In this document: positions 22,057-59,682 of the stretch, one piece after another
Layout: each line of letters opens with the position of its first letter
How positions within the stretch are numbered: the stretch's first letter is position 1
Virus record (IMG/VR): IMGVR_UViG_3300036715_002570
Span: 1-64,000 of that record
Strand: one strand, 5' to 3'
Source: a virus
Length of the DNA stretch: 64,000 bases
Translations under genes and position numbers: made by a program
Notes under the pieces: generated by a model
Told to the model about the DNA's origin: nothing
Database searches by the model: none
The model's input: only the letters and a program-made list of their open reading frames with translations

Positions 22057-25000
22057 ATGGCCAATCAACAAACAATGAAACTGACCCAAAAAGTGCTTCG
22101 TCATATGGAAGCTATGGCGTCAGGCAATCAAGTCGGTAGCATCTTACTCGCAGGCGACCCAGGCATTGGTAAGACAACAATGATCTCTCTGCTTGCAGCG
22201 TTGCTCGGCATGAAGGCTGTGATCATTGAAATTCCGCACATCACTGAAGAACACTTGATCAACATCCCGTTCTTGGTGTTCAACTCTACGACCGGCGCAA
22301 AGACACACGGTTCCACAAACGTTGACACAAACGTTGACACAAGCAAGATGTCAATGGTTCTGGCTGACTCGAACCTGTTTACTGCACTACAAAGCGCAAA
22401 GGCACTGTCAGATGCAGAGTACTTGACATATATGTCAACAAAGGCTCCCCGTCACGTCCAGATGGTCTATCAACAGATGGGTGGCACTGCTGATAAGATT
22501 CCACCAGCGATTGCCCGTGCACGTAAGTCACACAGCACGATTTTGTTCCTCGACGAATACTACCGTATGACGTCCATGCGTATCCGCAACATCATGCGTG
22601 GTATCCTGAACGGTAACATCGGTATGCACAAGATTCCAAAAAATGTGTACATCATGTACGCATCTAACATGCGCGATCCGCATGCTGGTCTGGAGGAAAT
22701 CCCATCGAATCACCAATTCAACGTTGTTGAATTCAAGCCGCCAACCAAAGACGAATGGTTCATCTATCTCGCATCCACGTATGAGCACCACTCTCATATC
22801 CGCCTGAACGAGACTGTGATCCGTAAGTTTCAGAAGATTCTAAAGGATGAAGACATCAGCTATGATGACGTCAACGTTGGCGTCCGCACATCACCGCGTC
22901 GTTGGGAACAACTGATCACGTACATCAACACGTCGATTCCCGTCAAAGATACGACAGAAGCTCGCGCTCTGCTGACAAACGTCAAGAACAACTTCATCCA
23001 CTACCAAGAGGAAACGCACAGCAATCTCGCCGGCAAGGTGACGAAGGCAGTTGCGGAGCTAATCAAGGAAACGTCTGGTATTGACGTCAATGAAAAGGAT
23101 ACGCTAGAGCCACACGAATGGCGTACGGCTCTAGATCACGCAATCACTCAAATCATTCGTTCTGGTGGCGATCGGAAGCACATCCCCGTTGTTTCCGGCC
23201 CTCCAGGTATCGGTAAAGCTCAGCCACTGTATTCTAAAATCAAGACTCCAACGGGCTGGACCACGATGGGAGAGATCCGCGTTGGTGACGTATTAACTAT
23301 GCCCAACGGAGATAAGGCACCTGTGAGTGCTGTATATCCTCAAGGGAGGAAAGAGATTTTCGAACTGACGTTTGCGGATGGTCGAAAGACGCATGCATGT
23401 GCTGAGCACCTATGGAACATTAAAAAAGACCGTGAAAATAACTGGCAAACCGTTGACACGCATGAAATAGAACGCCTACTGAACACAACGAATCGTTGGG
23501 TGTACGTGCAGCTACCCGACAATACTGCCCCCCCTGTTGATGTTCCAATGGATCCATACTTGTTGGGTGTACTGTTGGGCGATGGTTCAATGACATCCCA
23601 CACAATTAGCCTATCAACTGCCGATACACAGATTCTTAGCAACGTAAATGATCTGCTGTCAGAAGGTTATAGTTTCAGGCACAGTAGCAACTACGATTAT
23701 CGTCTGACTCGAGAGCGTGACTCGTATGAAATTGAACCTACGTGGAAGATGGCAGGAATGTATGAAAACGCGTATGTTCAAAAATTAAGTGCTCTTGGAT
23801 TGCTCGGCAAGAGCAGCCTAGAGAAGTTTATTCCTAATGTATATAAGCAGGGATCGCGCGAACAAATTGAACAACTTCTGGCGGGATTAGTTGATACAGA
23901 CGGATATGTGAACAAACAAGGCGCAATCTCTATCTCTACAAGCAGTCGTCAATTGGCTGAGGATATTCAATACATTGTTCGATCAATTGGTGGTATTGCG
24001 AAGATAGCGACAAAGTATCCAACTTACACTTATCAAGGTGAAAGGAAAATTGGCAGTGTGGCATACACTGTGTCAATTCGCTATCCAACACCTCGCGCAT
24101 TATCTCACCTCGATCGTAAGCTTGCTCGAATCCCCAACCACTATCAGTATAGCGATTTGAACCTTCGCGTAGTGTCTATCGATTCAATCGGGGAGGACGA
24201 AGCACAGTGCATCATGGTTGATCACCCCGAACATCTGTATATCACAGATGACTTTATCGTGACACACAACACATCCCAAGCATGGGAAATCGCCGAAAAG
24301 CACAACCTTCGTTTGATTGAAATTGACGTCAGTGAGTTGTTTGCTGACGACGCTGTCGGTATGCCGCTGCCAGGCGAACGCAACGGCAATCAGATCAAGG
24401 TGCAATTCTCCGCTCCCAAATTGTATAAGCAAATCATGGACATGATTGAGCGTAAGGATAAGGCGTACATTGATGAATTGTCGCAAGACCCTGAGGCGGA
24501 TGCTCAGGCTGAGATTGCCAAGTACAAAAAGCAACCATTTAAGTATCTGATTCTGCTTGACGAATTGAACCGCGTTGACCAGAAGACGTTCAACTCCCTT
24601 CGCCGCGTGATCTTGGAAAAGAACTTTGGTGGTAAGGATGAAGAAACGGGTGAGGAATACAAGCTGCCTAAGTCCGCAATTGTGATTGGTGCTATCAATC
24701 CACACGGTGCTGGTACGGAAACACTGACGCAACACTTCCGGGATGCAATTGACGTGATTCCTGCCAAGGGTTCGTGGGACGCGACAAAGTCGTGGCTGAA
24801 GGGTAAGAAGTTCGAGGGAATCACAGATGACGTCCGTACGGTCGTTGAACAGCTGATGAATGCATTCGCAGATAAGTTTGCCGACAAGAGTGAAACACAC
24901 GGTAAGCACCAGCGTGCGTTCAACCTCGACATCAATGGCATGCCTCTGTACATCTCTCCTCGTGAGTACTCTGACATGCACGCAACTTTGATGCGTGAAA

Positions 25001-25701
25001 TCAATGCACGATTCAAGTACCTACTGGATGACCCCGACATCAAGGAATCGCAGATGCGTCCTGAGTTGGATGAGGCTGTGTATGAAGCGTTTGAAGACTC
25101 GCTGAACATGGTGTTCTACAAGCAGAATGCTGACATGAAGGATGAATTCATGGCTAAGTTGCATTCATGGGTTACGCACCTGCCAGCAACAATGTATAAT
25201 CAGTTGATCAAGAAGACAGCCTCAGGCATTCACGCTCTGTCTAACGTCATGAGCAAGTACTTGGATGGATCAACAGATCTAGCCAAGATGCCCGACGACG
25301 TCCACATCGTTAACGCAAACAACACAATTAACCATGCCCAGTTCATGGAAGAAATCAAGTCGGCACTAACGAACAAGATCGTTGATGACAGCACGGTTCA
25401 GAAGTACATTCTTGATGAAGTACACCCACGCGTTCGGTTGCAGGGTGACGAAATCATTGCCGATGGTCCTGACACCTCCTTGCTAACCAACTTCTTCATG
25501 TCGTTGCTATACACACTGCACTTGCACGAGTACGCACACGACCGTCTGGCAGTCGTTGGTAAGGCACTGTCAACAATGATGTCAGACACACGTAAGCGTC
25601 TGATCAAGGACGGCAAGATCACAGAAGATATTGCCGACGAAGCATCCACGTCTGTTGCTAACCTGCGCTCTGAATTGGTCGACGTAATTGAGGCTCTATA
25701 A
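22057..25701 (+). CDS. MoxR-like AAA+ ATPase with two P-loops and an intein
   Basis: The 1214-residue precursor becomes 863 residues after splicing. The first AAA+ module has Walker A GDPGIGKTT (about residue 33) and Walker B TILFLDEYYR. The second has Walker A GPPGIGK|T, split by the intein, and Walker B YLILLDELNRVD. This is the MoxR/CbbQ style of ATPase, which usually remodels proteins with a VWA partner. The next gene encodes that partner, joined by a 1-nt overlap. Late promoter at 22020. Confidence 0.88.
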   Translation: MANQQTMKLTQKVLRHMEAMASGNQVGSILLAGDPGIGKTTMISLLAALLGMKAVIIEIPHITEEHLINIPFLVFNSTTGAKTHGSTNVDTNVDTSKMSMVLADSNLFTALQSAKALSDAEYLTYMSTKAPRHVQMVYQQMGGTADKIPPAIARARKSHSTILFLDEYYRMTSMRIRNIMRGILNGNIGMHKIPKNVYIMYASNMRDPHAGLEEIPSNHQFNVVEFKPPTKDEWFIYLASTYEHHSHIRLNETVIRKFQKILKDEDISYDDVNVGVRTSPRRWEQLITYINTSIPVKDTTEARALLTNVKNNFIHYQEETHSNLAGKVTKAVAELIKETSGIDVNEKDTLEPHEWRTALDHAITQIIRSGGDRKHIPVVSGPPGIGKAQPLYSKIKTPTGWTTMGEIRVGDVLTMPNGDKAPVSAVYPQGRKEIFELTFADGRKTHACAEHLWNIKKDRENNWQTVDTHEIERLLNTTNRWVYVQLPDNTAPPVDVPMDPYLLGVLLGDGSMTSHTISLSTADTQILSNVNDLLSEGYSFRHSSNYDYRLTRERDSYEIEPTWKMAGMYENAYVQKLSALGLLGKSSLEKFIPNVYKQGSREQIEQLLAGLVDTDGYVNKQGAISISTSSRQLAEDIQYIVRSIGGIAKIATKYPTYTYQGERKIGSVAYTVSIRYPTPRALSHLDRKLARIPNHYQYSDLNLRVVSIDSIGEDEAQCIMVDHPEHLYITDDFIVTHNTSQAWEIAEKHNLRLIEIDVSELFADDAVGMPLPGERNGNQIKVQFSAPKLYKQIMDMIERKDKAYIDELSQDPEADAQAEIAKYKKQPFKYLILLDELNRVDQKTFNSLRRVILEKNFGGKDEETGEEYKLPKSAIVIGAINPHGAGTETLTQHFRDAIDVIPAKGSWDATKSWLKGKKFEGITDDVRTVVEQLMNAFADKFADKSETHGKHQRAFNLDINGMPLYISPREYSDMHATLMREINARFKYLLDDPDIKESQMRPELDEAVYEAFEDSLNMVFYKQNADMKDEFMAKLHSWVTHLPATMYNQLIKKTASGIHALSNVMSKYLDGSTDLAKMPDDVHIVNANNTINHAQFMEEIKSALTNKIVDDSTVQKYILDEVHPRVRLQGDEIIADGPDTSLLTNFFMSLLYTLHLHEYAHDRLAVVGKALSTMMSDTRKRLIKDGKITEDIADEASTSVANLRSELVDVIEAL
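23218..24270 (+). mobile_element. Class 3 intein with LAGLIDADG homing endonuclease
   Basis: The 351-residue insertion lies between K387 and T739 of the precursor, in the second P-loop. It starts with Ala (AQPLYSKIKTPTGW) and ends VTHN. Class 3 residues are present: W453 in AEHLW, C718 in AQCIMVD and T736 in VTHN. Two dodecapeptide motifs, LLGVLLGDG and LLAGLVDTDG, indicate an intact LAGLIDADG nuclease. Confidence 0.9.
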
Positions 25702-36240: not shown

Positions 36241-36708
36241 ATGACCCGAATCAATCTTGTCGATCCTGTTGAACTAACAGACCAACACCTGATCGCTGAG
36301 TACCGCGAAACGCGCCTGTTGACAGCGAACATGCGTAAGTCGTTTAGGCTGACGGGGTACGATAAGCAAAAGATCCCGAAGCAGTTTACGTTGAATGCAG
36401 GGCACGTAACGTTCTTCAAGAACAAGGGCCCGTACATCTCCAATCGGTATCACAAGTTGATCTACGAGATGGAAAACTGTTGGTTTACCCCCACGTACAC
36501 GTCAATCGATACAACTGCGTGGCCAGCCAATTGCTTCAACGACTGGACACCTACAGAGCGTGACAAACAAATCGTCCGTGAGCGAATCGCCTTGCGGATA
36601 TCGGCTAAACCGTTGTGGTATCGGTACTACAGCAAACCTCTCGGAGAACTCTATGACGCGCGTTGTCGAATGTCCAACCTCAGCTCTACAGCTCCTGCAC
36701 GAACCTGA
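36241..36708 (+). CDS. denV: Pyrimidine-dimer DNA glycosylase (endonuclease V)
   Basis: The 155-residue protein begins MTRINLVDPVELTDQHLIAE, nearly identical in pattern to T4 DenV, with catalytic Thr2 (N-terminal amine after Met removal) and Glu23 in YRE. AGHVTFFKNKG and WYRYYSKPLG are also shared. It excises cyclobutane dimers after UV damage. The last 56 nt overlap the next gene. Confidence 0.93.
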   Translation: MTRINLVDPVELTDQHLIAEYRETRLLTANMRKSFRLTGYDKQKIPKQFTLNAGHVTFFKNKGPYISNRYHKLIYEMENCWFTPTYTSIDTTAWPANCFNDWTPTERDKQIVRERIALRISAKPLWYRYYSKPLGELYDARCRMSNLSSTAPART

Positions 36709-37171
36709 TAATCGGTACGTGTTCCTTGCAGGCGGAATCTCAGGATGCCCCGACTGGCAGAAGGAGATGATCGCTCGCTTCAAGGGCGTTGATGATCACC
36801 TCGTGCTCGTCAATCCACGTCGTGCCTCCTTCGATATTACCAACCCATCAGAGAGCGATTTCCAGATCGAATGGGAGGCAACGCATTTGCATATGTGCGA
36901 TGCTGCGATCTTCTGGTTTCCGTTTCACACACTGTGTCCGATTACGCTGTTCGAAATTGGCAAGCATGCAGAACAGGGAATGACGCTATTCGTTGGCTGC
37001 CATCCTGCATATGCCCGTGCGTTCGACGTGCGCAAGCAGCTATCTCTGATGCGTCCGGATATCGTCGTGCATGACAGTTTCACCCCGTTGGTGGAACAGA
37101 CGATTGACTGGTATCATCGTTCTGTTGATGAGAACCGATTCATCGCTGAGTCAGTTGGTGGCAACACTTAA
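36653..37171 (+). CDS. Nucleoside 2-deoxyribosyltransferase-like protein
   Basis: The 172-residue protein reads YVFLAGGISGCPDWQKEM, LVNPRRASFDI, FQIEWEATHLHMCDAAIFWF and LCPITLFEIGKHA. These are the glycan-binding GGI, the NPRR loop and the ExxxI segment of phage nucleoside 2-deoxyribosyltransferase-like proteins. It probably acts on N-glycosidic bonds of nucleotides or NAD-like molecules. The last 42 nt also encode the 5' end of the RNase P RNA. Confidence 0.8.
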   Translation: MTRVVECPTSALQLLHEPDNRYVFLAGGISGCPDWQKEMIARFKGVDDHLVLVNPRRASFDITNPSESDFQIEWEATHLHMCDAAIFWFPFHTLCPITLFEIGKHAEQGMTLFVGCHPAYARAFDVRKQLSLMRPDIVVHDSFTPLVEQTIDWYHRSVDENRFIAESVGGNT

Positions 37172-37570
37172 ACAGGCTTAGAGGAAGTTCGGGGCTACAC
37201 AGAGCAAGACTCGGCGCTCTGTGGGAGACACCATGTGCACTTACGGAAGCCGTCCTTGAGACGAGTTGACCTTCCAGTGCCTCGACAGTCGGGTAGAATA
37301 CGCTAGTGCTCTGAGCATGAAGGTCGCAATAGGTTGGTAGCCGCCGCGATCAGTTCCCTCGAGTAGGCGTACCTATCTGGACAACATGCCGTTCGCGGGC
37401 CGGGAGGTGCGGTCGTTTGTACCACAACGTTGACTGTAGCAAGCCAAACAGATCCTGCTGACGTTGCTCGCCGAGGGATCGGGTTGGTGCAGCTGCCTAT
37501 AAACGGCAGCCAGGTCGTAAGGCCTGAGATGAATGATGAATTAGAAACAGGACTCCGGCTATGAGTTCTC
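37130..37570 (+). ncRNA. rnpB: RNase P RNA (bacterial-type)
   Basis: Catalytic RNA that cuts 5' leaders from pre-tRNAs, using host RnpA protein. P1 pairs GAGAAC (37130-37135) with GTTCTC (37565-37570). P2 pairs GATTCATC (37137-37144) with GATGAATT (37535-37542), one G-U. The 5' core GAGGAAGTTCGGGGCT matches GAGGAAAGTCCGGGCT of E. coli. GTAGCAAGCCAAACAG matches the GGAGCAAGGCCAAAUAG core. The 3' core GAGATGAAT...AGAAACAGGACTCCGGCTAT matches AGAUGAAU...ACAGAACCCGGCUUAU. The 5' end overlaps the upstream gene and the 3' end touches a convergent HNH stop. Confidence 0.85.
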
Positions 37571-37984
37571 CGCGACACTGCTAGCGCTCAAATATTGGAT
37601 TGCACTTTCCAGTATTTGGGCGTTATCTTTTGCCAAGCCCAACATTACATTGCAGTTTCGACAGAGGATTCCACGCACAGCTCCGGTAGTGTGGCAGTGA
37701 TCGACGGCAACCAAATTGGATGTGATGGGCGCTAGCTTGTCTTTGCATATAGCACACTTACCATCTTGATCAACGATCATTTGCTTTTTGTGCTCTAACG
37801 TAATGCCGTACTTCTGCTGAAGGCGCTCACACGGCGTCATTCGTCTTCGATTCGGATGTGATTTCGACCATGCTCGCGATTTGGCCTTAGCGCACTCCTT
37901 GCACTTTGAATGGATGACCCCTTCTTTTGACTTGTAGAAATCTGGTTCTGGCTTGATAGTAGCACATTGCTTGCATTGTTTCAT
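37559..37984 (-). CDS. Endonuclease VII-like HNH endonuclease
   Basis: The 141-residue protein (ATG 37984; GTG 38011 possible) has N-terminal zinc pairs CKQCATIKPE...CKEC and the endonuclease VII signature YGITLEHKKQMIVDQDGKC, AICKDKL, AVDHCHTTGAVRGILCRNCN, then LGLAKDNAQILESAI. In T4 the family resolves branched DNA; small members like this are often homing genes. Its stop overlaps the last 12 nt of the RNase P RNA. Confidence 0.85.
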   Translation of the reverse strand: MKQCKQCATIKPEPDFYKSKEGVIHSKCKECAKAKSRAWSKSHPNRRRMTPCERLQQKYGITLEHKKQMIVDQDGKCAICKDKLAPITSNLVAVDHCHTTGAVRGILCRNCNVMLGLAKDNAQILESAIQYLSASSVAENS

Positions 37985-38020
37985 GCAGCTATTTACATCC
38001 TTAACACACAAGGAAACACC

Positions 38021-38150: not shown

Positions 38151-38297
38151 CCCTTCATATATACGGTTGTTGAGATGATTGCGGATCGCATTTATTGTTT
38201 CAACAACCGTAACGAGAAGTCAGGCCTCATCAAATTCTGACACAACAGCCAATCGGACAGACCGATTGCGTATCAACTATTGCAAAGGAACTTTGCC
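38151..38297 (+). promoter_or_regulatory. Structured leader of the NAMPT gene
   Basis: About 145 nt without a gene. An 11-bp stem (38163-38173 with 38200-38210) and a CAATCGG/CCGATTG hairpin near 38250-38268 precede AAAGGA and the ATG. A regulatory leader is plausible. Confidence 0.4.
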
Positions 38298-39764
38298 ATG
38301 CTATCTCTGATCAAGTCTCCCAATTTCATCATGGCCCGCGACAGCTACAAGGCTGGTCACTGGCAGGAAATCCCATCCGACATCAAATACGCCGTGTCGG
38401 CAATCGTCCCCCGCAAGCCAAGCAAACGACTGAACATCAACGAAGTCGTCGCTGCCGGTCTCGCCGTTTGTGCGGAGATCCTCGTGAATACGCGGATCAC
38501 GCATGCGATGATCGACGAAGCGGAAATCGAGGCGAATGAACAGGGCTATGAGTTCAACCGTGCAGGCTGGGAGCGAATCGTTACGGAATGTGACGGCAAG
38601 CTGCCGATCGCGATGTACGGCGTTGAAGAAGGCCGCGTCGTGCACCCGCAGACGCCGATCGCGATGTTCACCAACACCAAGCCTGGCTTTGCTTGGCTGG
38701 CGTCCGACATCGAAACATGGTCTCAGGGGATCATCTGGAAGATGTCGTCTGTCGCCAGCGTGTGCCGTGCTGCTCGTCTGAAGATTCGCGCAGGCATGAT
38801 CAAGTCTGGTGCCGATCTGGCATGGCTGGACTACAAGCTGCATAACTTCGGCGACCGTGCAACGACGCCGGAAGACGCAATTATGGCTGGTATCGCGCAC
38901 GCGATGTTGTTCAACGGGTCCGACTGCCTCCGCGCGAACGGGTACATCAAGACGATCTACCACACGAACGAGGCATACCTGTCCAGCGTCGAAGCGACCG
39001 AGCACAGCACGATGTGCATGAACAGCAACGCCGCTGAGAAGGATGACTTCGGTGCGGCAGAAATGGCTGTCACGCGCTTGGAAGCGGTCGTCAAGCGCGT
39101 CAAGCAAAAGTACATCGGTATTCCGCTGATGAGCGCTGTGATTGACACGTACGACAGTCGTCGTTTCGTGCGCGAATACCTCGGCACTCGCCTGAAGGAC
39201 CGAATTCTCGCTAGCGGTGGCAAGTTCGTCGCTCGTCCGGACAGTGGTGATGTCGCTGTTGAACCTGGCCTCGTTGCCAAAGACTGGGAAGACACTGTCG
39301 GTCTTGCCGGCTACACGTCGACCGGCTACAAGATCCTGAACCCCGCTGTTGGTGTGCTGCAAGGCGACGGCATCCGCTTGAACACGATTGATGCAGTGCA
39401 GGAAGGGTTCATGTCCGCAGGCTACAGTTGGGACAACTTCGTGCTCGGCATGGGTCACGGTACGACGAATGACGTGTCTCGCGACGACTTCAGCTTCAGC
39501 ATGAAGGCAATGGCGTTCAGCCGTGATGGCAAGTCGTGGACCCGCCTGCTCAAGGAACCGAAGACTGACCTCAGTAAGAAGTCGCTGAGCGGCCTAATCC
39601 GCTGCGCAGAGACGGTTGATGGTGATCTCGACGTGATTGACATGACGAACGACCCAGCTGGCTACTTCACGTCTACCCCTGGCTGGCGTCTGTACTCTAA
39701 GGACGGTGAACGGCATTACCTTCAGTCGTTCGACGATGTCATGGCGCGAGCGCGATCGCTGTAA
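38298..39764 (+). CDS. Nicotinamide phosphoribosyltransferase (NAMPT)
   Basis: The 488-residue enzyme joins nicotinamide and PRPP to NMN in NAD salvage. Visible: RDSYKAGHWQEIPSDIKYAV (substrate loop), KLHNFGDRATTPEDAIMAGI, YDSRRFVREYLG, KFVARPDSGDV (phosphate site) and GVLQGDGIRLNTIDAV, then GMGHGTTNDVSRDDFSFSMK. Length is as for human and bacterial NAMPT. ATG 38298 has AAAGGA; an upstream TTG is unlikely. Base composition looks richer in G and C than its neighbours, a possible sign of transfer. Confidence 0.95.
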   Translation: MLSLIKSPNFIMARDSYKAGHWQEIPSDIKYAVSAIVPRKPSKRLNINEVVAAGLAVCAEILVNTRITHAMIDEAEIEANEQGYEFNRAGWERIVTECDGKLPIAMYGVEEGRVVHPQTPIAMFTNTKPGFAWLASDIETWSQGIIWKMSSVASVCRAARLKIRAGMIKSGADLAWLDYKLHNFGDRATTPEDAIMAGIAHAMLFNGSDCLRANGYIKTIYHTNEAYLSSVEATEHSTMCMNSNAAEKDDFGAAEMAVTRLEAVVKRVKQKYIGIPLMSAVIDTYDSRRFVREYLGTRLKDRILASGGKFVARPDSGDVAVEPGLVAKDWEDTVGLAGYTSTGYKILNPAVGVLQGDGIRLNTIDAVQEGFMSAGYSWDNFVLGMGHGTTNDVSRDDFSFSMKAMAFSRDGKSWTRLLKEPKTDLSKKSLSGLIRCAETVDGDLDVIDMTNDPAGYFTSTPGWRLYSKDGERHYLQSFDDVMARARSL

Positions 39765-41079: not shown

Positions 41080-41919
41080 ATGGCCTTCATCGACATACAT
41101 ATCGTCCCGAAGTTGAACGCGACAGATGACCCAAAAGTACTCGGCGCGATCTCTGTGATCGAGAACCTTGCCAACCAGCTTGGGGTTCCTGTCGTCCCAG
41201 AACAATCAGTGAATAGTGGAACACTATGTATCGCCGTCGGCGGTGACGGGACGATGATCGAAGCAATGCGTCGCGCTGCTCGATCCCGAGGATGGGCCCT
41301 AGGGATTAACCTTGGCCACATCGGCTTCTTGACTGACTACACAGCAACCTCACAGCTGCATGAGCAGTTGCGTGATGTGATCTTCAACCTCGATGAAATG
41401 CATCAGAGTGACTTCATGAGCTTCGAACGCCGAGCGGTATTGGAGAACTCTCTCGTTGACCGGCTGGCAATAAACGACGTGTCAATCTCGTCGCTCGCCT
41501 CCGATGAGATGATCAAGTACCAACTACTGATTGACGACCATAATGCAGGGATTCACCGAGCAAACTCATTGTTGGTGTCGACAGCGACAGGATCAACAGC
41601 GTACTCCCTGTCGGCTGGTGGAGCACTATTGATGCCCGGCATGCAATCGATCCAGGTTGTGCCAGTCGCCGCAGCTACGATGACGTCTCGCCCCCTGATC
41701 GTCAGCAGTCGTTCAAAGGTTACTGTCCGCGTGTTTGGACAGGGGGTTTCGGTTCGCGTGGATGGCCAACGTGTGTTCTCGAGTGAACAATCGTATACGA
41801 AGGATGCTCCGTTTGAAGTGGTTGTCAACCGGTATTCGCAAGATGTTGCTGTGATTCACCCGAAGGGCTGGAACTTTTTTGACATGCTGTCTATGAAACT
41901 TGGGTGGATCAAGGAATGA
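41080..41919 (+). CDS. nadK: NAD kinase
   Basis: The 279-residue enzyme phosphorylates NAD to NADP. Motifs: CIAVGGDGTMIEAMRRA (GGDGT), LGINLGHIGFLTDY, INDVSISS (NE/ND motif) and RANSLLVSTATGSTAYSLSA, then VDGQRVF. Near-complete family length. It follows NAMPT by 1.3 kb and overlaps NADAR by 4 nt. Confidence 0.93.
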   Translation: MAFIDIHIVPKLNATDDPKVLGAISVIENLANQLGVPVVPEQSVNSGTLCIAVGGDGTMIEAMRRAARSRGWALGINLGHIGFLTDYTATSQLHEQLRDVIFNLDEMHQSDFMSFERRAVLENSLVDRLAINDVSISSLASDEMIKYQLLIDDHNAGIHRANSLLVSTATGSTAYSLSAGGALLMPGMQSIQVVPVAAATMTSRPLIVSSRSKVTVRVFGQGVSVRVDGQRVFSSEQSYTKDAPFEVVVNRYSQDVAVIHPKGWNFFDMLSMKLGWIKE

Positions 41920-42384
41920 TGTTCGACGAACCAACTGTGGCACCGATCCTCGAGTTCTCAGGCGAGCACCACTTTCTGTCAAACTTCCACGAGGGTGATC
42001 CGTTCGTTTGGAACGGCGATCTCTGGCTGACATCGGAGCATGCGTACCAGGCTGCGAAGTGTGCTCGTGAATACCAGTACCACTTGATTCGTAACCTGGC
42101 TCGTCCAAACCAAGCGAAGCGCGCAGGTAAGCATGTTGAGCTGCGTAGCGACTGGGAGCAGGTCAAAGATGGCATCATGCTCAGCATCGTTCGTGCAAAG
42201 TTCAATTCGCATCAACACCTTGCCCGCCTGTTGCTAGCAACAGGTGATGCCCATCTCGAAGAGGGGAATTGGTGGAAGGATCGGTACTGGGGTGTTTTGC
42301 CCCGTTGGAGGGTCGGGACAAAATAAGTTGGGGAAAATTCTAATGATCGTTCGAGACGAACTGACCTTTAGGAGCGAGCAGTGA
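41916..42384 (+). CDS. NADAR-family protein, frameshift in a T-run
   Basis: NADAR (YbiA-like) proteins are N-glycosidases; some remove ADP-ribose from guanine. The frame gives FSGEHHFLSNFHEGDPF, TSEHAYQAAKCA, QAKRAGKHVELRSDWEQVKD and GNWWKDRYWGV, then is lost at TTTT (42295-42298). Reading TTT restores the family end CPVGGSGQNKLGKILMIVRD to 42384, whose stop overlaps the next GTG. As written the product would be 137 residues. Coupled to NAD kinase. Confidence 0.85.
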
Positions 42385-47702: not shown

Positions 47703-47901
47703 GAACATTCAAAATTACGGTCAAAGCTCGCCGCGCCAAGATCGAATTTGCGCCCGGTATGGGCGTTGGAACTCTGGTGTCCCGGGAGATCAGCTCCCCG
47801 ACAACGCACGTGAGGTTGAGATGGGACTGATGGTTGACAATCTGTGTCAAGAGCTGATTCGAGATGCAATCGAAGTCACGACCGAGGAGGTCACGAAATG
47901 A
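47699..47901 (+). CDS. Unknown protein (67 aa), probable frameshift
   Basis: ATG overlaps the cREC stop. [20 protein letters not shown], then the frame is lost. Adding one G at the GG at 47758-47759 restores [20 protein letters not shown] and [18 protein letters not shown], ending in a TGA that overlaps the CCA enzyme ATG. As written the ORF stops at 47830. Confidence 0.6.
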
Positions 47902-48995
47902 AGAAGTACCTCGTAGGTGGTGCGGTTCGTGACCTGCTGCTCGGGATCAAGCCGAAGGATCGCGACTGGGTGGTAGTAGGATCCTCTCCTGAGGAGATGC
48001 TCGCACTTGGATACCAGCAGGTAGGAGCATCTTTCCCCGTCTTCATTAAGGATGGTGAAGAATATGCACTGGCGCGTACCGAACGAAAGACGGGCGTTGG
48101 ATACAACGGGTTCGATGTCACGTTCGATCCTTCTGTCACATTGGAGGAGGACCTGATCCGCCGCGACCTGACGATCAACGCGATGGCGCTCGACATCGAT
48201 ACGTACCAACTGATCGATCCGCACGGCGGTCGCAGGGACTTACACAACGGAATCCTTCGCCATACCAGCCTCGCGTTCGCGGAAGATCCCGTCCGTGTTC
48301 TCCGCACAGCTCGGTTCGCTGCTCGGTACCAGTTCTCCGTGGATCCGACAACGATCCGTCTGATGTCCGACGTTGCACATGAACTTGTGCACGTGCCCCA
48401 AGAGCGGATCTGGGCGGAGTTCAAGAAGGGCCTGACGGAAGATACACCTCATCTGATGATGGACGTTCTCAGCCGCTGTGGCGCGTTGTCAACACCTGCG
48501 CTCGAGATCTACAGCCACGCCAATTTGGACATGATCCGGAATCTGTCCCCAACCCATCCAATGCACGTTCGCCTTGGCGCTGTGTTCCGGAACACAGTGG
48601 GTGACGTCAATGCGTGGTCGAAAAAGCTGAACAATGCGAAGATCCCTGCTGCATTGATCAAGATTCTCGTCACGTACCTGCGTGAGTATGACATCCTGTA
48701 CAACTACTGTCTGCAAGATGCGGATACACGCGTTCGGTTGCTTGACCGCCTTCGTGCGTTCTCGGATCCGAACCTGTTGTCACACGTGATGGATTGCATG
48801 ATCAACAACGATCTGATGTACTTCTACGTGTATCGCCCAATCCCGTCGTATCTGACCGGTCAGAAGGCGGCAGCTTTTCGTGATCTCGATACGATTCAAG
48901 CGAACGTTGACAGCGTTGCAATCGCTGCGTCAGTCGATACCAAGTCGATCAAGCAGGCGATTCATGATGCACGCGTTGCGGCATTGAGCAAGTAG
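47898..48995 (+). CDS. cca: CCA tRNA nucleotidyltransferase
   Basis: The 365-residue class II enzyme adds CCA to tRNA 3' ends. Motifs: [13 protein letters not shown] (GG and RD), KDRDWVVVG (DxD-like metal site), [12 protein letters not shown] (motif B/C) and [16 protein letters not shown] (motif D/E region). It resembles bacterial Cca without a long HD tail. GAGGAGG precedes the ATG. Most tRNA genes in the window lack an encoded CCA, which explains its presence. Confidence 0.95.
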
Positions 48996-55001: not shown

Positions 55002-55093
55002 GCTCCGTCCGGGCTGGCTTGGTGAAGGCCTCTGACTGTTAATCAGAAGGATGCAGAAAATGCATGCGAGGATCGTAACCTCGGGACGGAGCA
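55002..55093 (+). tRNA. tRNA-Asn-like (GTT) in an 18-bp extended stem
   Basis: Anticodon stem TCTGA/TCAGA with loop CTGTTAA, T-arm CGAGG/CCTCG. The acceptor GCTCCGT/ACGGAGC extends to an 18-bp perfect stem (54993-55010 with 55084-55101). Variable arm long (TGCA/TGCA hairpin). Confidence 0.65.
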
Positions 55094-55110
55094 ATAGACA
55101 CTTAGACAAT

Positions 55111-55186
55111 TCCTCTTTAGCTCAGTTGGTAGAGCGTTGCACTGTTAATGCAAATGTCGTTGGTTCGAACCCAGCAAGAGGAGCCA
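55111..55186 (+). tRNA. tRNA-Asn(GTT)
   Basis: Canonical: TCCTCTT/AAGAGGA, TTGCA/TGCAA with loop CTGTTAA, encoded CCA. Confidence 0.92.
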
Positions 55187-55191
55187 AATTT

Positions 55192-55265
55192 GGGATGCAA
55201 GCTTTAAGGTGAAGCAACTGGCTCTTACCCAGTAGAACTCGGTTCAATACCGTGGCGTCCTACCA
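55192..55265 (+). tRNA. tRNA-Lys(CTT)
   Basis: Acceptor GGGATGC/GCGTCCT, D-stem GCTT/AAGC, anticodon stem ACTGG/CCAGT with loop CTCTTAC, encoded CCA. Confidence 0.85.
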
Positions 55266-55266
55266 C

Positions 55267-55339
55267 TCTTCCGTTGGTGTAATTGGCAACACAGCTGGCT
55301 TTTACGCAGTCGTTCTCGAATCGTTGCCGAGGCGGAGGA
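55267..55339 (+). tRNA. tRNA-Lys-like (TTT), irregular T-arm
   Basis: Acceptor TCTTCCG/CGGAGGA pairs. Loop CTTTTAC on a four-pair stem. The T-arm is CTCG/CGAG with a 9-nt loop. Confidence 0.5.
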
Positions 55340-55382
55340 CTTAGACGATTATAGAACAACATAATATCTGGAGACGAAATAG

Positions 55383-55619
55383 ATGATTGGTGTCACGACC
55401 CTCTCGCGTGAAGAACGCGTTAAGCTGAAGAAGGCGCTCGAACGAATCGAGGAAGAAGCAACGAAGACGTACGCGATCACACTAAAGATCGTCGTCAAGG
55501 AAACTCGCAGTGACGACCTTGCAGAACCGGGAAGTGCAGTTGACAGCATTGTTGACGTGCTGCTACCTGGCTCTGAAAGGCTGGTCGTCCTCAACCTGAC
55601 GTTCCCTGACGAAGAATAA
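55383..55619 (+). CDS. Unknown protein (78 aa)
   Basis: MIGVTTLSREERVKLKKALE, then YAITLKIVVKETRSDDL. Alpha then beta. GGAG lies about 10 nt upstream. No family recognised. Lone gene in the second tRNA array. Confidence 0.6.
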   Translation: MIGVTTLSREERVKLKKALERIEEEATKTYAITLKIVVKETRSDDLAEPGSAVDSIVDVLLPGSERLVVLNLTFPDEE

Positions 55620-55629
55620 CAGGACAAAT

Positions 55630-55701
55630 TACCGCGTAGCTCAGAAGTAGAGCAACACTCTTACAAAGTGAAGGTCGAGATTGCAAAATTCTCCGTGGCA
55701 A
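55630..55701 (+). tRNA. tRNA-Val(TAC), irregular T-arm
   Basis: D-stem GCTC/GAGC, anticodon loop CTTACAA, acceptor TACCGCG/CGTGGCA with one mismatch. T-arm GAGA/TCTC with an atypical loop. Confidence 0.6.
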
Positions 55702-55707
55702 CAAAAT

Positions 55708-55781
55708 GGTCGCGTAGCTCAATTGGTAGAGCGTTCTCTTGATAGGGGGAATGGTTGTAGGTTCAACTCCTACCGTGGCCA
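55708..55781 (+). tRNA. tRNA-Ile(GAT)
   Basis: Acceptor GGTCGCG/CGTGGCC, anticodon stem TTCTC/GGGGA with loop TTGATAG, T-stem GTAGG/CCTAC. Confidence 0.82.
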
Positions 55782-55788
55782 CAAATAT

Positions 55789-55860
55789 ACCCGCGTAATT
55801 CAGTGGTAGAATGCACGCTTGATAGGCGTGAGGTCGTAGGTTCAAGTCCTACCGTGGGTA
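55789..55860 (+). tRNA. tRNA-Ile(GAT), second copy
   Basis: Acceptor ACCCGCG/CGTGGGT, anticodon stem CACGC/GCGTG with loop TTGATAG. Confidence 0.88.
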
Positions 55861-55895
55861 CAATGTTTAGGATACGGTACTATACCATATCGACT

Positions 55896-55903
55896 CATAA
55901 ATA
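55896..55903 (+). promoter_or_regulatory. Late promoter CATAAATA
   Basis: 20 nt upstream of the HNH gene at 55924. Confidence 0.75.
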
Positions 55904-55923
55904 ACTTCAGCACAGGAGTTAGC

Positions 55924-56562
55924 ATGCAGTCTATGGAAATTATTCGTCAGGTGGAGATTGAGCGGCTTATTGAGGCATATGCTGAAACAGGGTCAATCGC
56001 AGGTGTGGGTCGAGTGATGGGAATATCTGTTAAGGCTCCATGTGTTCGCAAGCTAATAAAGCAGCGCCTGGCAGCAGCAAGCCCATCATTAATGAAGGAG
56101 CATTCCGCCCGCGGATCGTATAGCATTGAGCAAATAAGAGCTGCAGTAGCGAAATCGATCTGTATGTCAGAAGTGTTGCGAGAAATTGGATTAAGTACAC
56201 ATGGGTCTTGCGCTAATGTAATCAAGCGAATCATGAAAGAACACAACATTCTTTCAGATCACTTTGATCCTGCTTTGGCGCTTCGTAAAGGTAACGCTCG
56301 TAGATGGTCACCAGACGAAGTGTTTATCGAGCACAGCCCAATCCCACGGGCCACTCTGCACACGCATGTTAAACGGCATAACGTAATTGGGACACCGGTG
56401 TGCAGTGAATGTGGAGTTGCAACTACTTACAATCGTAAGCCGATTTCTCTGACCGTTGACCATATAAACGGCGTTAGTGATGATAATCGAATAGAAAATC
56501 TAAGGTGGCTATGTCCAAATTGTCATTCACAGACGAGTACGTATTGTGGGAAGAACAAGTGA
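55924..56562 (+). CDS. HNH homing endonuclease with helix-turn-helix region
   Basis: The 212-residue paralogue of 35582-36223 has the same order of domains: helical N-terminus, SICMSEVLREIGLSTHGSCA, WSPDEVFIEHSPIPRATLHT, then the HNH VCSECGVATTYNRKPISLTV, DHINGVSDDNRIENLRWLC and PNCHSQTSTYCG. CAGGAG upstream. It follows the Ile tRNAs. Confidence 0.88.
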   Translation: MQSMEIIRQVEIERLIEAYAETGSIAGVGRVMGISVKAPCVRKLIKQRLAAASPSLMKEHSARGSYSIEQIRAAVAKSICMSEVLREIGLSTHGSCANVIKRIMKEHNILSDHFDPALALRKGNARRWSPDEVFIEHSPIPRATLHTHVKRHNVIGTPVCSECGVATTYNRKPISLTVDHINGVSDDNRIENLRWLCPNCHSQTSTYCGKNK

Positions 56563-56590
56563 CGGTGTTTCTTGCAGAGAAGTAAAGAAC

Positions 56591-56663
56591 GGGCCTCTAG
56601 TATAGGGGATATTATGCCGTGCTTGCACCGCAGAGACCTAGGGTTCGATTCCCTTCTCTCCTA
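56591..56663 (+). tRNA. tRNA-Ala(TGC) with broken acceptor stem
   Basis: Anticodon arm CCGTG/CGCAG with loop CTTGCAC and T-loop TTCGATT are present. Only three acceptor pairs form (GGGCCTC with CTCTCCT). The 3' half is read through by the HNH frame. Confidence 0.55.
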
Positions 56664-57110
56664 CAAATAAAAAAGACATGCACACGATGCAAGCAAGAAA
56701 AGCTTCTACAAGACTTCACACGAGACTCATCCCAAAAAGAAGGACATTATTCTGCTTGTAAATTGTGCAAGCGTTTCACAGCCAGGATTCGTCATAAAGG
56801 TGATAATGTGGCGCAGGCGCGAAACAAGCTAAGAGTACAGCAAACATCGCAGATGATTCGTGATAAAAAGTCTTCAGGATGCATTGTATGTGGTGAGCTT
56901 GAGCCAGTCTGCTTAGATTTACACCACACGGATCCAAGTAAGAAAGACGTTGATCCAAACAAGCTGTGGAACCGTGTGTGGGATAAGTTCATGCAGGAGG
57001 CACAAAAGTGTATTGTCGTGTGTAGTAACTGTCACAAAAAGATTCATGCAGGGATGATCGTCAGCCAGTGTGACGGGACTGCAACAATGTTAAGAGCTGA
57101 TCAAGTGTAA
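56619..57110 (+). CDS. HNH homing endonuclease wedged between two tRNAs
   Basis: The 163-residue frame has an N-terminal zinc finger (KTCTRCKQEKLLQDFTRD...CKLC) and the HNH part GCIVCGELEPVCLDLHHTDP, CIVVCSNCHKKIHAGM; it is a paralogue of 8722-9180. The only standard start, GTG 56619, is inside tRNA-Ala; an ATA at 56667 is the alternative. The stop lies in tRNA-Thr, so both ends overlap tRNAs. Confidence 0.8.
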   Translation: MLAPQRPRVRFPSLLQIKKTCTRCKQEKLLQDFTRDSSQKEGHYSACKLCKRFTARIRHKGDNVAQARNKLRVQQTSQMIRDKKSSGCIVCGELEPVCLDLHHTDPSKKDVDPNKLWNRVWDKFMQEAQKCIVVCSNCHKKIHAGMIVSQCDGTATMLRADQV

Positions 57111-57167
57111 GTGGTGACACGCCTCTCTCGTAAGGAGGAGAACGGAGTTCAATTCTCCGGATCAGCA
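57096..57167 (+). tRNA. tRNA-Thr(CGT)
   Basis: Acceptor GCTGATC/GATCAGC, anticodon stem CCTCT/GGAGG with loop CTCGTAA, T-stem CGGAG/CTCCG. Overlaps the HNH stop. Confidence 0.88.
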
Positions 57168-57173
57168 CAAATT

Positions 57174-57244
57174 GCCCCTATAGTTAAATGGTATAACAGG
57201 ACCTTTGTAACGTTCAGTCCACAGTTCGATTCTGTGTAGGGGCA
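57174..57244 (+). tRNA. tRNA-Thr(TGT), second copy
   Basis: Acceptor GCCCCTA/TAGGGGC, loop TTTGTAA, T-stem CACAG/CTGTG. One C-C mismatch in the anticodon stem. Short variable loop, unlike the copy at 35447. Confidence 0.85.
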
Positions 57245-57272
57245 CACACTGCAAACAATGGAGGATGCTATG

Positions 57273-57320
57273 ACACAGCTAAACGCAGAACCAATGGAGT
57301 ACCGCGCAAGTCGGTAAACG
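57273..57320 (+). CDS. Possible 15-residue leader peptide
   Basis: MTQLNAEPMEYRASR follows GGAGGATGCT, a strong ribosome site, and precedes a 10-bp tandem repeat and the next gene. A leader or upstream ORF is possible. Confidence 0.35.
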
Positions 57321-57353
57321 GAGTTTCAAACAAGTTCAAACAAGTTCAAACGA

Positions 57354-57692
57354 ATGTCTGAACTTTACAGGCACTTTTCCAAAGACTGGGAGCATGTACT
57401 TGATTACTCTGATCAAGCACTACTCGACTTGTACAACCAAGAATCATACGGTGGCCGCGTAGAGTCCAACAACGGATTCGCTGTCGGTAAGAAATGGTTG
57501 AACGTCTACGTAACAGCATGGAAACAATCGATCAGAGAAGGTACTCTGTTCGTCCATGAACTGTACGAAGACCCAGGTTTCCCACATTGGTGGCTAGATA
57601 GCGTACTGAAGGGTGTGTACGACAATCTAGACGTCTGGTGGCAAGACTACAGCAAGACGAAAGTACATCATGATCTCACAAGCGCTTCATAG
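57354..57692 (+). CDS. Unknown protein (112 aa)
   Basis: Rich in Trp and Tyr: MSELYRHFSKDWEHVLDYSD, VGKKWLNVYVTAWKQSIREG, HWWLDSVLKGVYDNLDVWWQ. Helical. No family recognised. Preceded by a tandem repeat (CAAACAAGTT, about 2.5 units) instead of a clear ribosome site. Overlaps the next gene by 23 nt. Confidence 0.6.
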   Translation: MSELYRHFSKDWEHVLDYSDQALLDLYNQESYGGRVESNNGFAVGKKWLNVYVTAWKQSIREGTLFVHELYEDPGFPHWWLDSVLKGVYDNLDVWWQDYSKTKVHHDLTSAS

Positions 57693-57993
57693 CAAGTTTC
57701 TAACAAACACAGACGATACGGGCCGATTTGTTGTGTATTCACAGCGAACCGGTCGTCGGTACTACGTTGAGCCGATCGAAACACAACACACCCCCAAGTG
57801 GGGTTCAGTTGATCCAGCAACGGGTGAACTGATGCACAAGAAAGGCGATGGCAAGTACCGTGGCGGTGTCTCTCCAAAGGAGAGCCTGGTCACAGCTGAA
57901 AACGGGTTCAGCATCATTCATGAGCTTGGTATTGGCGTGAGCCCACACCATGCAATCGATGTGATTGATGCTAAGTATCCAGACAAAGCATAA
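57670..57993 (+). CDS. Unknown protein (107 aa)
   Basis: RFVVYSQRTGRRYYVEPIET, KWGSVDPATGELMHKKGDGK, GGVSPKESLVTAENGFSIIH. A beta then alpha phage protein seen beside structural and metabolic genes; function unknown. Confidence 0.65.
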   Translation: MISQALHSKFLTNTDDTGRFVVYSQRTGRRYYVEPIETQHTPKWGSVDPATGELMHKKGDGKYRGGVSPKESLVTAENGFSIIHELGIGVSPHHAIDVIDAKYPDKA

Positions 57994-58079
57994 CAGGCCA
58001 ATGTACAAACAGTGTCCCGGGTTCATTGTTATGCTGTAGTAGGGTTTCCTCACTTTGTCCCACCTATACAAAGTGATAC

Positions 58080-58153
58080 GGGGGCGGGGTGTTTACCGGA
58101 TAGCATATTACCCTTGCAAGGTTTTGGATCGAGTTCGAGTCTCGACGCCTCCA
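58080..58153 (+). tRNA. tRNA-Ala(TGC)
   Basis: Acceptor GGGGGCG/CGCCTCC, T-arm TCGAG/CTCGA, loop CTTGCAA. Lower anticodon stem weak. Preceded by a CACTTTG/CAAAGTG hairpin. Confidence 0.65.
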
Positions 58154-58224
58154 CAAACGCTGTTGATTTACCCTGTTGTAATCGAGAAGATTATGTCACA
58201 AATGGGAATAGTCAGGGGCGAGAA

Positions 58225-58440
58225 ATGGAAAAAGCACTCGTGGTATTCGGTTGCACGATAGTTGGCGGTGGTGCTGGCTATCTAGTCAGCCCCGATGGAA
58301 CTGCCGTGACAATCGGAAGTGCAGTCGGTTTTCTGATTGGCTGCATGTTGGTCAGTGGCAGCGGCGGCGACGGCGGAAGTGCAGCGATCGTTGACCTGAT
58401 TGACGACCTCACTGACGGCTTCGCAACCAGTCACCACTGA
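58225..58440 (+). CDS. Small Gly-rich membrane protein (71 aa)
   Basis: ATG 58225 with GGGGCGAG upstream. Two membrane segments (VVFGCTIVGGGAGYLV and TIGSAVGFLIGCMLV), then GSGGDGGSAAIVDLIDDLTD. Unknown role. Confidence 0.6.
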   Translation: MEKALVVFGCTIVGGGAGYLVSPDGTAVTIGSAVGFLIGCMLVSGSGGDGGSAAIVDLIDDLTDGFATSHH

Positions 58441-58448
58441 CAATTTTT

Positions 58449-58521
58449 GGGGATTAGTACAGCTGGAAAAACGCTAGCCTTGCACGCTTGAGTCAGGAGT
58501 TCGATCCTCCACCAGCTAGAA
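58449..58521 (+). tRNA. tRNA-Ala-like (TGC), 3' acceptor strand altered
   Basis: GGGGATT start, loop CTTGCAC and T-arm GGAG/CTCC fit tRNA-Ala. The 3' strand instead pairs with a D-arm segment (CAGCTGG with CCAGCTA). Confidence 0.45.
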
Positions 58522-58541
58522 GTCAAACAAAGACAAATAAT

Positions 58542-58615
58542 AGCTCCATAGCTCAATGGTAGAGCACTGCGTTGACATCGCAGATACGAAGGTTCGATTC
58601 CTTCTGGAGCTACCA
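58542..58615 (+). tRNA. tRNA-Val(GAC)
   Basis: Canonical: AGCTCCA/TGGAGCT, CTGCG/CGCAG with loop TTGACAT, encoded CCA. Confidence 0.92.
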
Positions 58616-58626
58616 ATTAAAGGAAC

Positions 58627-58963
58627 ATGATGATTTACGTCGCAGCACCACACAGCGACCCTGATCTTGCGATCAAGGACGCTAGGGTGCGCGAGTTCTA
58701 CGAGTTTGAGACCACCAAATATAGTCAGATGCCTGATGATTGGGTCTACTGGCAACAGTACAGTGAGCAAATGCTGAGCAAGTGTGACGGGATGGTCTTG
58801 CTGCTGCTAGAAGGCTGGGATAAGTCGACGGGCGTCCTCGCAGAACTCCGTACTGCCGAGACAACGGAATCCCATCCTCGTGACGGATGTCCGCTGGAAG
58901 CAGTTGTACGTTCCCGGACAGGGAATCGAATCATTCGTCATCAAACTGATAACCACTAAATAA
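58627..58963 (+). CDS. DUF1937/deoxyribosyltransferase-like protein, frameshifted
   Basis: MMIYVAAPHSDPDLAIKDAR, then CDGMVLLLLEGWDKSTGVLA, the YVAAP and C-D-GW-S-G-E pattern of small nucleoside-deoxyribosyltransferase-like proteins. After RTAET the frame is lost. One surplus A near 58863 would join NPILVTDVRWKQLYVPGQGI and ESFVIKLITTK to 58963. As written it ends at 58959 with unlikely sequence. Confidence 0.65.
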
Positions 58964-58986
58964 GTGGTCCAGTTAAGGGAGCCCTT

Positions 58987-59145
58987 ATGCGTCTGCAAGA
59001 CCTTTCATTCATCACAGAACAACAACTCCGTGAGCAAGCTGTTGCCCAACAGGCTCATGCTTTGCTAGAATCTGCAACTCCTGAGGAACTGATTTTGTCG
59101 GAACCTCGCAGCGCAGAAGACGTAATTGCGGAGTTGTACAAGTGA
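58987..59145 (+). CDS. Small protein (52 aa) with capsid-target-like start
   Basis: MRLQDLSFITEQQLREQAVA (I-T-E at 9-11), then a helix LLESATPEELILSEP. Overlaps the next GTG by 4 nt, so the two are translated together. Confidence 0.6.
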   Translation: MRLQDLSFITEQQLREQAVAQQAHALLESATPEELILSEPRSAEDVIAELYK

Positions 59146-59495
59146 TCGAAGTTCGCACGTGCATCTTGTTTCGTAAAACCTCGGTACAGCACTCACGTGA
59201 TCCGCGAGTGCGCGACAAGATCGTAGACTTCATCCGATTCAAGTCAGAGCACCCCCTTGAGTTGTATGGCTCGAAGGATCGTGCGTTTGCTAATGAAGGC
59301 AACTTGCGTGGTTTCATCCACGCAGGCCTAACGTTTGACGTTTCGATCGTGTACAAGATTGGGATGGTCGGTGGTAAGCGGACGTTGGATCTGTACGGCG
59401 TGTTCTCCCACGACGAGCTTGGTACAGGCCAGCCTCGTAACATCAATCGTCAACGTTCTGCTGGTGAAAAGCTGCGGAACCAAGAGATGGAGTAA
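59142..59495 (+). CDS. Unknown protein (117 aa), partner of the preceding small gene
   Basis: DPRVRDKIVDFIRFKSEHPL, GLTFDVSIVYKIGMVGGKRT, LDLYGVFSHDELGTGQPRNI. The size and order (small helical protein, then a basic alpha/beta protein with a D-L-Y-GVFSHDELG end) resemble RelE-type toxin pairs, but I do not recognise a catalytic site. Confidence 0.6.
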   Translation: MIEVRTCILFRKTSVQHSRDPRVRDKIVDFIRFKSEHPLELYGSKDRAFANEGNLRGFIHAGLTFDVSIVYKIGMVGGKRTLDLYGVFSHDELGTGQPRNINRQRSAGEKLRNQEME

Positions 59496-59510
59496 CGCTC
59501 CATCTTTCAT

Positions 59511-59581: not shown

Positions 59582-59590
59582 CAAAACATC

Positions 59591-59665: not shown

Positions 59666-59682
59666 CATCTAAAGGAACAAAC

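Follow-up and report, generated by a model that had tools for sequence, protein, structure and literature searches.

Introduction

Few ribozymes are nearly universal, and RNase P RNA is among them. In bacterial RNase P, the specificity domain of the RNA reads the T-loop of the tRNA and the GGU motif binds its CCA. A study of phage T4 suggested that the host RNase P RNA, which is stable in infection, may process the phage tRNAs (PMC9697503). The main survey of huge phages reports on tRNAs, synthetases, CCA-adding enzymes, and ribosomal proteins, and RNase P is absent from its text (PMC7162821). Elsewhere, RNase P RNA has been taken to mark a cellular genome as complete, and two 0.5-Mb megaphages were set apart partly because only tRNAs and tmRNA were detected as RNAs (PMC8172020). 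The type T RNase P RNA of Pyrobaculum reportedly lacks most of the specificity domain (Lai et al. 2010). Type T is archaeal and has different protein partners.

We found no earlier report of RNase P RNA in a phage or virus in the open-access PMC literature searched, which left subscription papers mostly uncovered; within that scope, the remark of a preliminary description, made from sequence alone, that such an RNA is rarely if ever described in phages held. Here we describe a phage-encoded homologue of bacterial RNase P RNA that extends, from P1 to P1, over positions 37130-37570 (+) of a 64,000-nucleotide stretch of viral DNA (IMG/VR record IMGVR_UViG_3300036715_002570; hereafter, the window). 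The homology is shown, while expression and activity of the RNA are inferred.

An RNase P RNA homologue with a class-A-like catalytic domain

When the window was scanned against Rfam with E-value thresholds, RNaseP_bact_a (RF00010) matched at 37127-37577 (+) over model positions 1-367 of 367 (41.8 bits, E 1.7e-11) and was the only family matched within 36900-37800. A search of the whole 150,677-base contig with RF00010 returned a single place (37.3 bits, E 2.2e-11). The score of 41.8 bits lies below the RF00010 gathering cut-off of 100 bits, and a scan of the window at gathering thresholds reported 40 tRNAs only and no RNase P RNA. That cut-off is a curated annotation threshold rather than a structural feature, and scores also fall under it in three of the 11 control genomes that match the model. 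The minimum-energy fold of the window RNA alone is no better than that of shuffles (z -0.45), a measure that is uninformative for a long pseudoknotted RNA.

The RF00010 alignment fits the catalytic domain, whose homology is thereby shown, and skips the specificity domain (146 model positions versus 225 nt in the window). Because the specificity domain is unaligned, we file the RNA as an RNase P RNA variant with a class-A-like catalytic domain and not as canonical class A. A P16-like helix is present, and covaries, in the window group. As part of the best overall reading, a bacterial class A type is the likely source of the phage RNA. Features are listed in Table 1.

Table 1. Features of the RNA and of its surroundings, in window positions.
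Feature	Position	Strand	Remarks
Deoxyribosyltransferase-like ORF (PF15891)	36560-37171	+	final 42 nt overlap the RNA
P1 5' strand, GAGAAC	37130-37135	+	pairs with 37565-37570
P2 5' strand, GATTCATC	37137-37144	+	pairs with 37535-37542
P3 hairpin, CTGAGTC 37146-37152 / GGCTTAG 37175-37181	37146-37181	+	pairing judged by eye
5' conserved region, variant motif GAGGAAGUUCGGGGC (GAGGAAGTTCGGGGC)	37181-37195	+	exact motif in 49 viral-contig stretches
P4 5' strand, AGU-U-CGGGG	37186-37194	+	bulged U at 37189; 8/8 pairs with 37553-37560
P5 5' strand, CUAC	37195-37198	+	pairs with GUAG 37436-37439
Non-canonical specificity-domain region	37199-37435	+	starts with hairpin 37199-37205 / 37216-37222 (P8-like)
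J5/15 region, GCAAGCCAAACAG	37439-37451	+	many invariant or near-invariant columns in alignment A2
P16-like helix, GAUCC 37451-37455 / GGAUC 37476-37480	37451-37480	+	100% paired in 16 RNAs
GGGUU at the GGU-motif position	37481-37485	+	invariant across the 16 RNAs of A2
P18-like hairpin, CAGG...CCUG	37511-37526	+	imperfect alignment with relatives; uncounted
3' conserved region, AGAUGAAUG (AGATGAATG)	37527-37535	+	from RF00010 alignment and sequence position
P2 3' strand, GATGAATT	37535-37542	+	pairs with 37137-37144
P4 3' strand, CUCCGGCU (core segment CTCCGGCT)	37553-37560	+	pairs with 37186-37194
Endonuclease VII ORF (PF02945)	37559-38011	-	overlaps the last 12 nt of the RNA
P1 3' strand, GTTCTC	37565-37570	+	pairs with 37130-37135
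Intrinsic-terminator-like hairpin	37582-37631	+	11 nt past the RNA; 18-bp stem, 6 G-C pairs, then TCTTTT
tRNA-rich region upstream	8601-35532	+	33 of 44 ARAGORN genes
tRNA nucleotidyltransferase (CCA-adding enzyme)	47844-48995	+	PF01743, PF12627; phrog_2244 in the protein set containing it
Second tRNA-rich region	55004-63269	+	11 ARAGORN genes

As features of the sequence, P1 and the adjacent P2 close the molecule, and the pseudoknotted P4 with its bulged U is kept. P4, being a pseudoknot, is unpaired in the structure line of the Rfam model and so counts as a separate check; in the window it differs from the Rfam consensus AAG-U-CCGG on both strands, in a matching manner. The A-rich segment of J5/15, the GGU motif, and the 3' conserved region are invariant or nearly so in alignment A2, the window included. 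By the anchors used, a few of which are doubtful (e.g., that of L008), the specificity-domain region between the P5 strands ranges from 52 to about 250 nt (maximum 251) across relatives; the T-loop contact made by bacterial RNase P may accordingly be missing or have been replaced.

Covariation supports the helices

Alignment A2 comprises 16 RNAs aligned without structure, in which 24 named pairs were counted. Of the cells, 93.5% are paired, and two-sided changes occur at eight pairs (22 cells); on each of the five measures, all 500 shuffles fall short. With slid partners, pairing falls to 30-47% of cells; the slide of -3 yields eight two-sided pairs as well, but 12 cells versus 22. Most of the two-sided change lies in P5 (three of four pairs) and the P16-like helix (four of five pairs). 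In both helices, the window shows compensated pairs of its own, including a compensatory A-U in P5. The weakest helix counted is the P8-like hairpin, with 81.3% of cells paired, and P18 was excluded from the count because it is misaligned in the window.

P4 is near-constant in A2, with one G-U in the window and the last pair lost in three of the 16 RNAs. All eight of its pairs form in 29 of 33 RNAs in a best-fit search; most relatives were found via motifs that fix one or both P4 strands, and an intact P4 is thus partly built in. P1 and P2 were compared by strand matching in 26 of 27 RNAs, one being omitted because an anchor was missing: own strands score 22.3 on average versus 13.1 for mismatched strands in P1, and 16.3 versus 12.4 in P2. 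P1 in the relatives is made from unrelated sequences. The 6-bp P1 of the window is short taken alone, and 22% of mismatched strand pairs score as high (7.8% for its P2).

The structural claims of the preliminary description therefore held: a 441-nt RNA with bacterial RNase P RNA cores, now matched over the whole RF00010 model; P1 (GAGAAC/GTTCTC) and an adjacent P2 (GATTCATC/GATGAATT) at the exact positions; and conserved 5', central, and 3' cores in the right order (GAGGAAGTTCGGGGC, GCAAGCCAAACAG, AGATGAATG, CTCCGGCT). Of its proposed checks, the expected significant full-length match to RNaseP_bact_a was obtained, yet under the gathering score, and compensatory changes in related RNAs support P1, P2, P4, P5, and the P16-like helix without contradiction. 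The deoxyribosyltransferase-like and endonuclease VII-like neighbours that it named were confirmed as PF15891 and PF02945.

The locus and its carrier phage

The RNA lies among phage genes. The proteins of its contig (72 scanned) include Gp23 major capsid protein, confirmed separately, a terminase PHROG, RIIA/RIIB, and RNA ligase, together with tyrosyl-tRNA synthetase (TyrRS), an RF-1-domain protein, and tRNA nucleotidyltransferase. By this gene content, the contig belongs to a T4-like large phage. Pfam Terminase_6N was not found in the contig, despite the terminase PHROG there. A second IMG/VR record (109,519 bases) represents the same virus and is 99.99% identical over 21.5 kb that include the RNA locus. 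The terminator-like region downstream of the RNA has a z of -7.4 for 37577-37626; terminator-like sites number three in 1.8 kb versus 1.3 in shuffles.

Other genes of the contig are noted here in their own right. The window has NAD-related ORFs, namely NAMPT-like (38280-39764), NAD kinase (41080-41919), and NADAR (41904-42326), and the contig also encodes an NMN transporter, an NMN adenylyltransferase-like protein, and an ADP-ribosylglycohydrolase; NAD salvage against defence is a possible role for this set. An AAA ATPase ORF (22057-25701) contains a LAGLIDADG domain, and two contig proteins match the intein splicing domain.

Relatives in viral contigs

BLASTN with the window locus against 50,697 phage records returned no match, and relatives were instead identified by scanning for motifs, by searching with structure models, and by BLAST queries with other viral RNAs. 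In IMG/VR viral contigs, the exact motif GAGGAAGTTCGGGGC is present in 49 stretches, one of them in the window's own virus, which was left out of the RF00010 search. Among the other 48 motif-bearing records, 16 match RF00010 at E 1e-3 or better, three of them above the cut-off, and all 16 matches contain the motif. The 3' motif ACAGAACCCCGGCTA occurs in 34 stretches, including RNAs that RF00010 misses (in contigs of 336 kb, G138, and 167 kb, G018). A scan for canonical motifs gave 116 stretches, of which 80 were searched, with RF00010 matches in 34 of 50 and 19 of 30 records. Phages and apparent bacterial chromosome ends are mixed in this set, and many small contigs in it (e.g., 334-bit matches on contigs of 10-28 kb) were not used because they look like such ends.

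Gp23 was found in 12 of 50 records bearing the RNA versus none of 14 cellular controls, and Terminase_6N in 17 of 50 versus six of 14; the membership of the two sets of 50 is not quite identical, and in some of the records the RNA was detected by motif alone. The NAMPT relatives L003 and L004 have no RF00010 match, and BLAST with the RNAs of contigs G131 and G032 found no phage record. BLAST with viral RNAs also hit fecal 'Bacteriophage sp.' records.

A model of the 3' half of 14 viral-contig RNAs (R1) was built with the window and the 735-kb phage LR756501 held out; its E-values are rough because calibration was short. R1 finds the window at 37434-37561 with 100.4 bits and LR756501 with 63.7 bits. 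On bacterial loci, it gives 32.3 (L261), 23.5 (L265), and 14.9 bits (L262), with no match in a fourth (L260). By these scores, the window RNA resembles the viral group more than it resembles the bacterial RNAs tested. Further RNAs of viral contigs score 34.2 (L008), 32.6 (L014), 25.2-30.2 (Microbacterium phages), 22.4 (L045), and 16.0 bits (L038), hardly or no closer to R1 than bacteria are; several origins are therefore possible, and a single phage lineage is not shown. LR756501, reached via BLAST, has no Rfam match at E 0.1. Its P4, AGU-U-CGCGA with UCGCGGCU, forms 8/8 pairs and was not found through the P4 motif, and its RNA has a terminator-like hairpin.

Carriage is patchy; most of the contigs searched are fragments. 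A Gp23 search seeded with G045, G004, G042, and G138 yielded 25 contigs of at least 40 kb among 80 kept, and R1 is clear in three of the 25, all of them seeds (G045, G042, and G004). In the other 22 there are no clear matches, two marginal ones at 17.8 bits that are probably spurious, and 20 without any; a second matched place in G045 is also probably spurious.

For bacteria, a genome scan for the 3' motif gave four stretches, coding by eye, none of them with the 5' motif upstream, and a P4 pattern search in four bacterial loci returned nothing. The 3' scan pattern fits only five of the 23 viral members with the exact 15-mer, and the absence of the variant P4 from bacteria is consequently not established.

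Three records were set aside. Microcystis phage MaAM05 (MW495066.1, 251.8 bits) was judged bacterial, with the match amid fabI, engB, mtgA, and glyS, as was Acinetobacter phage MD-2021a (CAKLQF020000022.1, one of two contigs examined), where coaD and transporter genes occur; AGRM01000002 is a Salmonella record.

A separate observation concerns IMGVR_UViG_3300048580_000994 (L248). An R1 match at 8027-8169 (43.8 bits) resembles the 3' part of an RNase P RNA, a GIY-YIG endonuclease-like ORF (7469-8107, by eye) precedes and overlaps it, and a possible P1 5' strand lies at 7455-7463. The region 7455-8190 may be a homing-endonuclease insertion into the RNA gene.

Relatives in isolated Microbacterium phages

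Relatives are also carried by complete genomes of isolated phages. In the Microbacterium foliorum phages A3Wally, Zooman, and Big4 and in a fourth record, RF00010 matches 221-nt RNAs at 72.0, 53.0, 51.3, and 64.3 bits, respectively, all below the cut-off. These RNAs occupy the gap between two tRNA genes and are unannotated in all four records. The sister phages show two-sided changes in P3, P4, and P5 (seven pairs, 10 cells); no shuffle out of 500 attains these values on four of the five measures, 37 do so on the fifth, and slid controls are 22-36% paired. Their P4 shifts from AAG-U-CCGGG/CCCGGCUU to AGU-U-CCGGG/CCCGGGCU, and the left half of the latter is that of the window group.

Association with tRNA genes

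ARAGORN predicts 45 tRNA genes in the contig, all but one of them in the window; one of the 44 in the window lacks a clear anticodon. The total does not bear out the figure of about 60 given previously. Among the 43 window tRNAs examined, CCA is encoded in 12 and T occupies position -1 in 33. The window RNA stands alone, with the nearest tRNA gene, the last upstream, 1.6 kb away.

Other RNAs lie closer to tRNA genes. With L234 and L235 removed from the count, a same-strand tRNA gene is found within 30 nt of the RNA in nine, and within 1.5 kb in 15, of the 25 contigs of at least 80 kb with an RF00010 match; for the 31 contigs under 40 kb, the figures are five and 10. Only two of the nine large contigs with a tRNA gene within 30 nt have a virion-gene match (G012 and G129); the nine also include G131 and G089. 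Of 10 proteins adjoining the RNAs of five large contigs without a virion-gene match, three belong to a phage ribonucleotide reductase family (G066, G071, and G072), and the other seven have no PHROG match; for G113 and G083, the tests gave nothing either way. The phage status of these five contigs rests on IMG/VR. In phages with a capsid gene, the gap between RNA and tRNA is 17 nt (G012), 1 nt (G129), or 7 nt (G053). A CCA-adding enzyme occurs in 24 of 50 records bearing the RNA, 23 of them over the cut-off.

Two arrays are described for their content. A 20-kb region of G113 (64401-84400, L284) holds 64 tRNAs and one tmRNA with the RNase P RNA in the middle, and this RNA is similar to the one in Microbacterium phage A3Wally (73% over 81%, E 2e-3). 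In G012, a tmRNA gene (L276 7397-7707, tag VESEFALAA) shares the tRNA array with the RNase P RNA.

A proposed role in tRNA maturation

RnpA (PF00825), the protein subunit, was found in none of 40 viral records, the window's included (many being fragments; 10 of 14 controls), and in none of four further phage records, including the complete genomes of A3Wally, Zooman, and Big4. With no RnpA gene found, the protein subunit would be the host's. We consider it likely that the locus encodes an RNA subunit that replaces the one of the host, borrows RnpA from the host, and matures the 5' ends of phage tRNAs; transcription, assembly, and cleavage are inferred. In this model, the RNA would be transcribed as a short unit ending at the terminator-like hairpin, its catalytic domain would fold around the rewritten P4, a step with covariation support, and it would bind host RnpA. 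The resulting enzyme would cleave the 5' leaders of the phage's many tRNAs, and, as inferred from gene content, the phage CCA-adding enzyme would complete their 3' ends. Where relatives abut tRNA genes, cleavage of the next tRNA may also free the 3' end of the RNase P RNA itself, a self-release that is likewise inferred.

Maturation of the phage's own tRNAs fits with the CCA-adding enzyme, TyrRS, the approximately 45 tRNA genes, and the position of some relatives beside tRNA genes. The earlier suggestion that the phage takes over this 5' maturation held in part: supplying the RNA subunit fits, and its expression and activity remain inferences. Against this reading stand the score under the cut-off, the unrecognisable specificity domain, the lack of evidence for expression or activity, and the 1.6 kb that separate the RNA from the nearest tRNA gene. 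The unremarkable single-sequence fold, the missing Terminase_6N match in the contig, and the patchy carriage also count against it.

Four alternatives were weighed. The RNA could be a decoy, a mimic of RNase P RNA that sequesters host RnpA or pre-tRNAs, blocking or retuning tRNA processing in the host, and that forms no working enzyme for phage tRNAs. The lack of a phage RnpA and a specificity-domain region strongly altered, down to 52 nt, are consistent with this. However, P4 with its bulged U and the CCA-holding GGU motif are kept, P4 through two-sided changes in sister phages, and a protein decoy needs neither; moreover, some RNAs directly adjoin phage tRNA genes. We regard the decoy as unlikely. 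We also doubt that the RNA is an active ribozyme aimed mainly at something other than phage tRNA 5' ends, such as host tRNAs, defence RNAs, or phage mRNAs. The altered specificity domain permits a changed substrate range and 1.6 kb lie between the window RNA and its closest tRNA gene, but the relatives beside tRNA genes and the frequency of CCA-adding enzymes among carriers (24 of 50 records) point to tRNA.

A functionless, decaying copy of bacterial rnpB acquired with tRNAs would accord with the low Rfam score, the patchy carriage, and the partial RNA beside the GIY-YIG endonuclease-like ORF of L248. This is very improbable, as two-sided substitutions keep the helices across viral contigs and close sisters, whereas neutral decay would break them. 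Finally, although certain database records labelled as phage have an RNase P in what looks like bacterial sequence (MW495066 and the Acinetobacter phage MD-2021a contig), assembly artefact or bacterial contamination is all but ruled out by phage genes on the same contig, ORFs on both sides, a second record of the same virus, and relatives in complete genomes of isolated phages.

Returning to the replacement subunit, a bolder version can be stated, toward which we remain slightly more skeptical than convinced: large phages would swap the host RNase P RNA for one whose active-site helix is recoded and whose specificity domain is reduced or replaced. This RNA would capture host RnpA, producing a hybrid enzyme dedicated to phage tRNAs, and, where flanked by tRNA genes, would free its own 3' end by cleaving the next tRNA. 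If true, this would be a viral ribozyme derived from the cell's core tRNA machinery, and an RNase P RNA of bacterial type that works nearly without a specificity domain. More generally, with a phage RNase P RNA, viral control of translation would reach as far as the maturation of tRNA 5' ends. The relatives would supply RNase P RNAs that are small by nature, at about 220 nt, and the culturable Microbacterium foliorum phages would provide a system to ask why phages carry so many tRNAs.

Comparison with known systems

The phage RNAs resemble bacterial class A (RF00010, clan CL00002) in the order of elements (P1-P2-P3-P4-P5, then J5/15, the P16-like helix, GGU, AGAUGAAUG, and the P4 3' strand) and in the bulged U of P4. 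They differ in the P4 sequence, which is AGU-U-CGGGG in the window rather than the consensus AAG-U-CCGG, in a specificity region that is unalignable and variable in size, and in carriers without a detected RnpA. The viral cases with 52-70 nt between the P5 strands lack most of the specificity domain, as does the archaeal type T RNA of Pyrobaculum (Lai et al. 2010), but the viral RNAs score with the bacterial class A model. The diverged RNase P RNAs of CPR bacteria (PMC8172020) are likewise related to RF00010, were detected only below its cut-off, and have helices missing; unlike those described here, they are cellular. Lastly, theta ribozymes of gut phages (PMC10879173) are also phage-encoded ribozymes linked to tRNA genes, but they are HDV-like, self-cleaving, and unrelated to RNase P, and their postulated role is the processing of 3' trailers.
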